From an uncultured Pseudomonadota bacterium (GTDB lineage Bacteria > Pseudomonadota > Alphaproteobacteria > UBA9219): a stretch of 56,801 nucleotides of DNA. Location: assembly GCA_903919315.1 (NCBI GenBank), contig CAIXHP010000011.1, positions 1 through 56,801 on the forward strand, read 5' to 3'. Below the pieces are notes generated by a model, which saw nothing but the letters and a program-made list of their open reading frames with translations, did no database searches and had not been told where the DNA came from. This document shows, piece after piece, positions 7,718 to 36,107 of this stretch. The translations under genes were made by a program, and so were the position numbers. The first letter of the stretch is position 1. The number at the start of each line of letters is the position of its first letter.

Positions 7718-8937
7718 GTCGCTCCAATCTCCAAATCCGCGATAGAAGTCAGGATTATGCCTCGGGCTATAAGCATATGGCTTGTGGATCGTCTCGCGGT
7801 CTCATGAAGAACAAATCTCAGAAGGCCGATAAGCTCCAAGTCTTGACTCAAAAACCCATTGCGTTTTCTTTGTTTTCTGGAGGCGGAGGACTTGACATAG
7901 GAATGGAACAGGCTGGCTTTCAACCGTTATGCTGCATAGAGATCGATCCTCATTGCTGCACTACTTTGACGCATAATCAGCCCGCCTATCTTAAGGACGC
8001 ACGGATTATAAATAGTGATGTAAGAAAAGTTTCTCCTGACGCTCTGATGCGTGATTTTGGTTTAGTGCCGGGAGAGCTTGACCTGCTTTATGGTGGACCT
8101 CCATGCCAATCCTTTAGCCAGATTGGCAAACAAGACGGTTTAAGTGATGATCGTGGTTTGCTGTTATTCGAGATGGCGCGCTTTGCCCAAGTTCTACGCC
8201 CTAAGGTGATATTGATAGAGAATGTAAAGGCTCTTGGGACGGCAAAAGACCTTAATGGCGAACGCGGCGGAGTTTTGAAGAAATTACTGCTTAAGCTGCA
8301 TAAATTAGGATACGCCACGCACGTAAAAGTTGTTAACTCGGCCGAATTTGGGGTTGCTCAACTGCGCGAGCGTATATTTATTGTGGCGGTGCAAGCTGGA
8401 TATGAATTTGAATTTCCTGAATCAACGCACGGCCCCAACGGTAAGGCCGCCCGACTTACTGTCGGAAATGCTCTAAAGGGGTTGAGAAAGCCCGTAGGAA
8501 AAGAGCAAGCAAAAGGTAACACCAACAATCATGTGGATATTACCCCAGCAGGAGATCGTCTACGCATCAGCTTTGTATCGGAAGGCTCCTATTTGGCTTG
8601 TGCGAATGCTCCAGCAAAGATTAAGGGGCGTTTGAGTAAAAAAGATACGACAAAGTTCCTTAGGCTTTCTCGCAGCGGTCAATCAAACACTTTGAGGTGT
8701 GGCGAAATCTTCTTCCACCCACTTGAGGATCGTTACTTGACCCCTAGAGAATATATGCGAATTCATGGCTTCCCGGATGACTATTATCTGCAAGGACCTA
8801 TTCGGGGAAGATCGGGGCGCGTTAGGCATTTGGATCAACACAGGCAAGTGGCAAATTCGGTTCCCCCACCTGTTGCAAAGGCCGTAGCAACTCAAATCCT
8901 TCAAACCCTATCGGCGATGTCAGACGATGGCGATTAG
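7714..8937 (+). CDS. DNA (cytosine-5-)-methyltransferase
   Basis: All main C5-methyltransferase motifs are visible: motif I FSLFSGGGGLDIGMEQAGF (near residue 51), motif IV with the catalytic cysteine GGPPCQSFSQIGKQ, motif VI ENVKAL, motif VIII QLRERIFIVAV, and motif IX/X near the end (REYMRIHGFPDDY, QVANSVPPPVAKAV). It would transfer a methyl group from S-adenosylmethionine to C5 of cytosine and protect the host from the nuclease encoded downstream. The target sequence cannot be read from the protein. The ~45 residues before motif I are unusual; an internal ATG at 7804 is an alternative start. It is the first main gene of a four-gene operon and overlaps the next gene by 11 bases. Confidence 0.9.
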   Translation: MSRSNLQIRDRSQDYASGYKHMACGSSRGLMKNKSQKADKLQVLTQKPIAFSLFSGGGGLDIGMEQAGFQPLCCIEIDPHCCTTLTHNQPAYLKDARIINSDVRKVSPDALMRDFGLVPGELDLLYGGPPCQSFSQIGKQDGLSDDRGLLLFEMARFAQVLRPKVILIENVKALGTAKDLNGERGGVLKKLLLKLHKLGYATHVKVVNSAEFGVAQLRERIFIVAVQAGYEFEFPESTHGPNGKAARLTVGNALKGLRKPVGKEQAKGNTNNHVDITPAGDRLRISFVSEGSYLACANAPAKIKGRLSKKDTTKFLRLSRSGQSNTLRCGEIFFHPLEDRYLTPREYMRIHGFPDDYYLQGPIRGRSGRVRHLDQHRQVANSVPPPVAKAVATQILQTLSAMSDDGD

Positions 8938-34245: not shown

Positions 34246-34562
34246 AAAATCACCTCGTTCAAGTTGCTGGCACCAAGAATGACGCCGTCAAGCGTAAGTG
34301 TCGAGACGGACGGCGCGGACGTGACGGAAAAGGGTTTAACCTGCGACGCGCTGCCCAGCCAAAACCCCAGCAGCGCCAGACCGATCAACGCAAAGGCGCT
34401 GTGGGGCCGGAAAGTTTGCCGCTGCGCCCACAACGGAATGACCGCTGCGCCCGCACGCGGCTGCGCGCGCCGCAGGATGCGCTCCATCAATTCCGGCGAA
34501 GGTTCCTCGACTTTGTAGCTGTCCAACAGCGCGGCGAGTTCGCGATCAAAGATGTCCGGCAT
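34242..34562 (-). CDS. Probable membrane anti-sigma factor (CnrY-like)
   Basis: A small protein of 106 residues from ATG 34562, which has GGGAG eight bases upstream. A cytoplasmic N-terminal half (MPDIFDRELAALLDSYKVEE, PSPELMERILRRAQPR) is followed by one membrane helix (SAFALIGLALLGFWLGSA) and a short periplasmic end. There is no zinc-binding ZAS motif. The assignment as anti-sigma rests on topology and its position: it overlaps the end of the sigma-factor gene by 17 bases and the start of the sensor gene by 4. Confidence 0.6.
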   Translation of the reverse strand: MPDIFDRELAALLDSYKVEEPSPELMERILRRAQPRAGAAVIPLWAQRQTFRPHSAFALIGLALLGFWLGSASQVKPFSVTSAPSVSTLTLDGVILGASNLNEVIL

Positions 34563-35112
34563 GTTTATACTCCCGTTCTTCACTTATCAGTTCGTCCTTG
34601 AGCCGTTGCTTGGCACGAAACAAAAGCTGTTGGAACGCGCCGAGCATGATGTCCATCGCGTCGGCGGCTTCCTGATTGCTCAGCTCTTCGTAGTAGCCGA
34701 GAACAATGGCGATCCTTTGGCGCTCCGGCAACACCTGCAGCGCGCGCCTGACGCGATCGCTCAGTTGGTCGGCGATCATCTTTTCGTCCGCGCCGGGCGC
34801 GTCGTCGGCGAGAAGATCCAAATCTTCCATTGCGGCGGGAACCGCTTTACGCCGTCGGTCGAGACAAGCGTTAATCACCACCCGATAGAGCCACGTCGAG
34901 AATTTTGCCCTCGGTTCCCACCGCACGGCCTCGTCCCAGATTTTTAGGCACACTTCTTGCGTTACGTCTTCTGCATCCTGCCGGTTGCCGAGCACACGCT
35001 CGGCAACCTTCAGGCTTTTGCCGAGATGCCTGCCGACAAGCATCCTATAGGCATCTTTGTCCTGCCGCGCGATACGCGCCATAAGTTCGTGGTCAGGATC
35101 GGAAACGGCCAA
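34546..35112 (-). CDS. ECF-type RNA polymerase sigma factor
   Basis: Region 2 (ARQDKDAYRMLVGRHL, NRQDAEDVTQEVCLKIW, FSTWLYRVVINACLDRRRK) and region 4 (LQVLPERQRIAIVLGYYEEL, SNQEAADAMDIMLGAFQQLL, RAKQRLKDEL) are both clear, with a short linker and no region 1 or 3. This is a group 4 (ECF) sigma factor, 188 residues. It should be held at the membrane by the overlapping anti-sigma gene product and released by the sensor. A promoter of ECF form lies 56-80 bp upstream and matches one in front of the divergent EF-hand gene, which suggests autoregulation and that the EF-hand gene is a target. Confidence 0.9.
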   Translation of the reverse strand: MAVSDPDHELMARIARQDKDAYRMLVGRHLGKSLKVAERVLGNRQDAEDVTQEVCLKIWDEAVRWEPRAKFSTWLYRVVINACLDRRRKAVPAAMEDLDLLADDAPGADEKMIADQLSDRVRRALQVLPERQRIAIVLGYYEELSNQEAADAMDIMLGAFQQLLFRAKQRLKDELISEEREYKHAGHL

Positions 35113-35167
35113 TGCTTTACCTTTGAGTTCTGTTCGGTCGGCGGCGCACGCCCTTCATACAACGTTA

Positions 35168-35192
35168 AACGCCGGGAGCGGACGAAACTTAC
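35168..35192 (-). promoter_or_regulatory. ECF-type promoter of the sigma-factor operon
   Basis: On the minus strand GTAAG (35188-35192) and CGTT (35168-35171) are separated by 16 bp, the spacing known for GGAAC-N16/17-CGTT ECF promoters of alphaproteobacteria. The wider match CGTAAGTTT ... GCGTTTAACG is nearly the same as that of the divergent promoter at 35264-35289. The sigma gene starts 56 bp downstream. Confidence 0.55.
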
Positions 35193-35263
35193 GCTCTTGG
35201 CCCGGCAAAATCAGCCGCCTTGGGAAGAAATTGCCGCCCGCCGCGCCGCGCAAAAAACATTTC

Positions 35264-35289
35264 GTAAGTTTTCCGACCTGTCCCGCGTT
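35264..35289 (+). promoter_or_regulatory. ECF-type promoter of the EF-hand gene
   Basis: GTAAG (35264-35268) and CGTT (35286-35289) with a 17-bp spacer, within CGTAAGTTT ... GCGTTCAACG. It is almost the same as the promoter before the sigma operon, but points the other way. The EF-hand start codon is about 50 bp downstream, after a near-perfect AAGGAGGT ribosome site. Confidence 0.55.
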
Positions 35290-35339
35290 CAACGGATTGG
35301 CGGGATGCAAATCGCCAACCACACCTCAAGGAGGTTTCA

Positions 35340-36107
35340 ATGACGAGTATATCGAACTTGTCGGGCGGAAGTCAGGCCGCCAGCCTCGCCAGTATGCGGC
35401 AAGCCATGTTCAGCAAGATGGACGCGGACAGCAGCGGAACGGTGAGCAAGGACGAATTCGTTGCGGCACGTCCCAAAAATGTTACCGCCGATCAGGCCGC
35501 CACTCTGTATGGCAAGATCGACACCACCGGCTCGAATGCCCTGTCCAGCGATCAGCTGGATCAAGGCATGGAGGCCAACAAACCGAGCGATGGCGCGGGC
35601 AGCCTCGGCAGCAGCGGGAGCAATCTTTCCAGCGATTTGCTGTCGACGCTGATGCAGTTGCTCTCGCAAAGCAGTTCGTCTTCGACCGGCGCCTCTCAAA
35701 CAAAGCCTTCCGCGACCGCTATGTTCAGCAAGATGGACACGGACGGCGACAACAAGGTGACGGAATCCGAATTTGTCGCCGCCCGCCCGGACGATGTGAG
35801 CGCAAGCCAAGCCAGCGAGTTGTTCGCGTCCATGGACACGAGCGGCACAGGCTCGATCACATCGGATCAGCTTAAGTCCTCGATGGCCAAAGGGCCGGGC
35901 GGCCCGCCTCCCGGAGGGCCTCCCCCCGGAGGTTCCCCGCCTTCCGGTGCGGCGCAAAGCTCGGACAGCTCAAGCTCGACCTCGGACTCAACGTCCCTTG
36001 TCGCCATGCTGGAAGAGCTGTTGAAGGCGGCCAAGGCGTACGCGTCCACTGCCAGCTACAGCAGCGCGACCACCGACGAAACCTCGTTGCTGACGACCAC
36101 GGCCTGA
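35340..36107 (+). CDS. EF-hand calcium-binding protein with four EF loops
   Basis: Four EF-hand loops are visible: DADSSGTVSKDE (28-39), DTTGSNALSSDQ (61-72), DTDGDNKVTESE (133-144) and DTSGTGSITSDQ (166-177). They form two pairs separated by a Ser/Gly-rich linker. The first loop of each pair is followed by the same F-VAARP motif, so the protein arose by internal duplication. A Pro/Gly-rich stretch (PPPGGPPPGG) and a Ser/Thr-rich tail follow. There is no signal peptide, so it is either cytoplasmic or exported by another route. It would bind calcium. AAGGAGGT lies seven bases before the ATG. Its promoter suggests control by the adjacent ECF sigma factor. Confidence 0.85.
   Translation: MTSISNLSGGSQAASLASMRQAMFSKMDADSSGTVSKDEFVAARPKNVTADQAATLYGKIDTTGSNALSSDQLDQGMEANKPSDGAGSLGSSGSNLSSDLLSTLMQLLSQSSSSSTGASQTKPSATAMFSKMDTDGDNKVTESEFVAARPDDVSASQASELFASMDTSGTGSITSDQLKSSMAKGPGGPPPGGPPPGGSPPSGAAQSSDSSSSTSDSTSLVAMLEELLKAAKAYASTASYSSATTDETSLLTTTA

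Follow-up and report, generated by a model that had tools for sequence, protein, structure and literature searches.

In the window (the whole stretch of DNA analysed, 56,801 nt from an uncultured alphaproteobacterium), an operon for an ECF sigma factor and a gene for an EF-hand protein lie back to back, and the intergenic region between them carries two copies of one promoter-like box pointing apart (Table 1). These boxes are best read, with a probability of about 0.87, as promoters of the adjacent sigma factor, by which it would drive both its own operon and the EF-hand gene. Promoter function with autoregulation is very likely, and so is the place of the EF-hand gene among the targets of the neighbouring sigma factor. 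The sequence-only reading had proposed this circuit, and it is still the most likely one, both boxes having been retained in the window and its relatives wherever the gene order was retained.

Table 1. Features of the sigma factor/EF-hand locus, with positions in the window.
Feature	Position	Strand	Basis
CnrX/CpxP-like membrane-anchored periplasmic protein (putative), 164 aa	33751..34245	minus	Homologues in the same position; weak Metal_resist match
113-aa putative anti-sigma factor with a single predicted membrane helix	34242..34583	minus	Same operon position in all relatives
ECF sigma factor, 188 aa, PRK05602 family	34546..35112	minus	Pfam Sigma70_r2 and r4; TTG start, AAAGGT upstream
ECF promoter (predicted) of sigma operon	35193-35163	minus	CGTAAGTTTCGTCCGCTCCCGGCGTTTAACG; CGTAAGTTT-N-GCGTTTAACG; 16 nt GTAAG to CGTT; kept in 7/7 readable sigma upstream regions
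ECF promoter (predicted) of EF-hand gene	35263-35294	plus	CGTAAGTTTTCCGACCTGTCCCGCGTTCAACG; CGTAAGTTT-N-GCGTTCAACG; 17 nt GTAAG to CGTT; kept in 8/8 EF-hand upstream regions
EF-hand protein, 255 aa, Ser-rich	35340..36107	plus	Pfam EF-hand families, best E 9e-18; homologues conserved

Sequence, rarity and conservation of the divergent boxes

Both boxes were present where the sequence-only reading had put them, and the spacers (16 nt on the minus strand, 17 nt on the plus strand) and the distances of 56 and 50 bp to the start codons were confirmed on the sequence. The CGTT of the minus box ends 56 nt before the TTG of the sigma gene (35112) and that of the plus box about 50 nt before the ATG of the EF-hand gene (35340). 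The two boxes are divergent, both are intergenic, and their shared form is CGTAAGTTT-N-GCGTTyAACG. They had been assigned to the GGAAC-N16/17-CGTT type of promoter (RpoE/EcfG-like), and this assignment was rejected: the CGTT-type -10 and the spacing of 16-17 nt do fit, but the -35 element is CGTAAG, not GGAAC. Across the 15 promoters of the family the -35 was CGTAAG in 13 and of the ATAAG type in two.

The pattern CGTAAGTTTN{10,16}GCGTTNAACG was found twice in the window and in none of 100 shuffles. When the whole 2.4 Mb genome was searched with CGTAAGTTN{10,18}CGTT (that is, CGTAAGTT-N-CGTT), exactly two matches were obtained, both of them the window boxes. Since the bare core GTAAG-N15..18-CGTT occurs in the window twice against 0.93 expected, which is near chance, the significance is carried by the longer match and by conservation. 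No further strong box was found by pattern search of the window's own genome; four of five other looser matches were inspected and none was convincing, so that a larger regulon in this genome was rejected.

Homologous loci came from five genomes within the same family (G005, G006, G008, G009 and G010) and from public MAG contigs L025 to L027, the last of which appears to be the G010 contig itself. TAAG-N16/17-CGTT in the correct orientation was found in all 15 readable upstream regions of the window and its relatives (7 sigma-side, 8 EF-hand-side), while 2000 dinucleotide shuffles averaged 0.083 and never exceeded 2. The sigma-side count is of sigma genes whose upstream region was readable, the promoters of the remoter divergent loci in G021 and G022 not being legible with confidence, and the EF-hand-side count takes in the window, G001 and a contig-end copy in G005. 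The boxes are near-invariant and the spacers variable, with the family consensus CGTAAGTTT-N13-CGTTTAA. A natural control for the EF-hand-side box is provided by contig L026, in which a different gene replaces the EF-hand gene and the sigma-side box alone is present. The G001 assembly, 99% complete, has kept the EF-hand gene and its box; no ECF sigma gene was found in it, and besides fragments it holds two sigma genes, by length of the RpoD/RpoH type. At its locus (contig C42) a well-kept minus-strand box precedes the EF-hand gene, and no ECF sigma gene lies divergent to it. Contig L025 (DYDL01000063.1) is labelled Desulfocapsa, yet its sigma factor groups inside the window's alphaproteobacterial clade; it is either a misplaced contig in that MAG or the product of a transfer.

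The divergent double box was rejected as a class-wide pattern: its strict form was found in none of 385 genomes, a form that misses the window's own 17-nt plus box, in a sample outside which most family genomes with the double box lie. In G008 and G010 the same kind of box precedes a gene for a Ser-rich protein with the motif DGSVTTTITYEDG, which is likely a second member of the regulon. This short protein (motif TNxDGSVTTTITYEDG) was seen behind a box at G008:C28:203851 and at positions 8019-8071 of locus L037, and homologues were found in G030, where the gene adjoins a sigma locus, and in G016, G021 and G022. A gene of the TIGR02466 family recurs beside the EF-hand or Ser-rich genes of sigma loci (L035 8788-9459, L037 7319-7972, L043 4001-4642).

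Proteins of the locus

The sigma factor scored 210.8 bits against NF004113 (PRK05602), above the curated cut-off of 208, and belongs to that family. The 113-aa protein encoded next matched an anti-sigma profile weakly (E 1.1e-4, 22 bits of 100 needed), and is called a putative anti-sigma factor. The product of the third gene has a single membrane helix and is helical in its C-terminal part; the sequence-only reading had likened it to CnrX and CpxP. By position the assignment is likely: in the three tandem loci of the same sigma family that were scanned, the gene after the anti-sigma position has a product that matches Metal_resist clearly, at 58.6 to 102.9 bits against a cut-off of 29.2. By score it is weak, as the match of the window protein to Metal_resist (PF13801) fell under the gathering cut-off (E 0.008, 16.8 of 29.2 bits), as did that of its L025 homologue (23.5 of 29.2 bits). 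The AlphaFold model is a helical hairpin of low confidence (pLDDT 62), and in a fold search CnrX entries ranked first with a non-significant E of about 1. Searches by sequence with the sensor homologues gave no match among solved structures, and no His or Cys is invariant among them.

The 255-aa protein has EF-hand loops, from which calcium binding is likely. Its best profile match was the XopAW family (NF041410), whose EF-hand layout it shares, at 82.1 of 120 bits and thus under the cut-off; the L025 protein reached 93.5 bits against the same cut-off. A reading as a type III effector was rejected on this score and on the single FliP gene per genome: each genome has one FliP-type export gene, and so nothing points to an injectisome in addition to the flagellar apparatus. 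Inspection of the N-terminus, MTSISNLSGGSQAASLASMRQ, revealed no hydrophobic stretch and no evident signal peptide, and the protein is therefore not evidently a periplasmic output. The EF-hand and target proteins of the window's family share a short unsigned N-terminus (M-T/S-S-V/I-S) and Ser-rich linkers; that such proteins might be exported through the flagellar apparatus is a speculation.

Related loci and the recognition helix

Across the class, 70 further PRK05602-family loci were sampled. In 36 of them the sigma gene is preceded, immediately or at a short distance, by an EF-hand gene, always on the same strand (tandem) and never divergent, and an EF-hand frame was found in none of 37 other sigma loci, a mixed control that includes RpoD- and RpoH-type genes (the PRK12515 control family gave 8 loci). 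The tandem EF-hand proteins that were read mostly start with a hydrophobic, signal-peptide-like stretch. One of the CaBP type (L103 906-1349) gave a sub-threshold lanmodulin match (39.9 of 135 bits), which means that its metal could be one other than calcium. At 17 of the 36 tandem loci CGACGGA...CGTT precedes the EF-hand gene, against about 0.5 expected for the core word, the distance from CGACGG to CGTT being mostly 16 nt; the window's CGTAAG-N16-CGTT is thus the same geometry with a changed -35. In the examples read, the tandem loci share with the window the sigma family, the anti-sigma position and the Metal_resist gene behind it; they differ in the tandem placing of the EF-hand gene, in CGACGG for CGTAAG and in the recognition helix.

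At two adjacent positions of the region 4.2 recognition helix, all eight sigma factors of the window's group have QQ. The 70 class members have ES in 61 cases and QQ in none, and ES is present in 21 of the 21 with a CGACGG box. These positions align with RS in an AlgU-type chain, residues which we take to be -35 contacts in E. coli RpoE. The change of the -35 and the helix together (CGTAAG with QQ, CGACGG with ES) is as expected if the window sigma factor reads the boxes. When 80 sigma sequences were placed in a tree, the window's group (8 rows, with 99/99 support) fell outside a 32-row clade to which 25 of the 36 tandem loci belong, many inner branches being unresolved and the bootstrap not settled. 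This placement and the different type of EF-hand protein suggest, as a suggestion only, that gain or exchange of the EF-hand partner was a separate event. The window locus is a rearranged form of a partnership that turns out to be common in Alphaproteobacteria.

The sequence-only reading knew of no description of such a link, and in this it has been overtaken: an EF-hand gene that adjoins an ECF sigma gene and is regulated jointly with it was reported in 2026 for Caulobacter vibrioides, where cabp, encoding a periplasmic EF-hand protein, directly precedes sigV (PMC13171946). In that report SigV modulates cabp, CaBP raises sigV expression, and both genes are induced by acid and by calcium limitation; both also depend on SigT, which was proposed as a master ECF over sigV, and the membrane link of the system was left open (PMC13171946). 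The cabp start was mapped by 5'RACE and its promoter read as GGAAA-N13-CGTTCA (PMC13171946), a spacing equal to GG-N16-CGTT, the class-wide geometry. Because of the class-wide motif, and because the published 5' primer for cabp ends in gcgacgga (PMC13171946), the -35 is probably CGACGG, at 16 nt from CGTT, and not GGAAA with a spacer of 13 nt. A PRK05602 match above the cut-off was obtained in the C. vibrioides control genome (sigV or another gene). The window resembles cabp-sigV, for which mutual regulation is reported, in the direct adjoining of EF-hand and sigma genes and in promoter geometry (CGTAAG-N16/17-CGTT). In Caulobacter, however, the genes stand in tandem, cabp itself contains the sigV promoter, and CaBP, of 133 aa, is Sec-exported; in the window the order is divergent, the changed box is present in two intergenic copies, and the EF-hand protein is larger and has no signal peptide evident on inspection. 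By analogy, the anti-sigma and CnrX/CpxP-like genes beside the window sigma gene are candidates for the membrane component that the Caulobacter work did not name. In CnrYXH of Cupriavidus metallidurans, metal binding to CnrX is relayed via CnrY to the release of CnrH (PMC7689651). The window, its roles being putative, has a similar set of ECF sigma factor, membrane anti-sigma and membrane-anchored helical periplasmic protein, but differs in its gene order, in having no efflux genes at the locus and in the want of an invariant His or Cys in the sensor homologues.

Control of the locus and its meaning

In the proposed circuit the one-helix 113-aa anti-sigma factor would hold the sigma factor at the membrane in the resting state, its own state being set by the CnrX/CpxP-like protein, and a signal presumed to arise in the envelope would bring about release. 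The free sigma factor would then act at the minus box on its own operon, a positive feedback that would also resupply inhibitor and sensor, and at the plus box, from which the EF-hand gene would be transcribed. Recognition by the neighbouring sigma factor is argued for by the confinement of the only two strong genome matches to the sigma/EF-hand intergenic region, by conservation in 15 of 15 regions with the sigma-side box alone kept in L026, by the recurrence of the box ahead of a second protein that G008 and G010 share, and by a -35 and a recognition helix that both differ from the rest of the family. The mapped start of Caulobacter cabp, its promoter of matching geometry and the SigV effect support the reading as promoters. 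Counting against this account are the G001 box and the anti-sigma and sensor calls, which were made from weak profiles and position.

It is most improbable that the boxes match by chance or belong to a repeat with no role as promoters: the bare core occurs in the window about as often as chance predicts, but the conservation of the boxes far above the shuffled mean rules out a chance match, and orientation and distance are correct for both start codons. Use of the boxes mainly by another sigma factor, a master ECF to which the neighbouring sigma gene would be one target, as sigV to SigT, is unlikely. It would agree with the reported SigT dependence of sigV and cabp (PMC13171946), with the box kept in G001 and with one further ECF-like sigma gene in the window's genome (G000:C5), but a master ECF would have many boxes; in the window's genome the strong box is restricted to this locus, and in the family it co-occurs with the neighbouring sigma factor and its QQ helix. 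Compatible with control by the neighbouring sigma factor, and not opposed to it, is a place for the EF-hand protein inside the control loop, altering sigma release on calcium as reported for CaBP/SigV. This is conceivable but rather doubtful for the window, where a protein of other than the exported CaBP type and with no signal peptide has no obvious contact with a periplasmic sensor; in its favour, CaBP raises sigV expression (PMC13171946), and EF-hand and sigma genes keep company both in the 36 tandem loci and in the divergent family.

Tentatively, and with less than even odds, the loci may represent a class-wide calcium-linked envelope-stress module (PRK05602 sigma factor, anti-sigma factor, CnrX/CpxP-like sensor and EF-hand protein). 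It would have been assembled at least twice with different EF-hand proteins (an exported CaBP type in tandem, an unsigned XopAW-like type in divergent order). In the window's lineage the -35 and the recognition helix would have changed in step, and the EF-hand protein would act in the loop, not as a passive output. Beyond cabp-sigV, the window adds the divergent order, a changed -35 accompanied by a helix change from ES to QQ, and an EF-hand protein in which no signal peptide is evident. A report from a single species becomes a widely conserved, testable partnership, with named candidates for its missing membrane component and a sigma-family promoter motif that agrees more closely with the mapped Caulobacter start than does the published reading. 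The interest lies in the breadth of a partnership of a kind that has only just become known (2026), and in the fact that promoter and recognition helix changed jointly, which offers a natural pair of -35 and helix states for studies of ECF promoter specificity.
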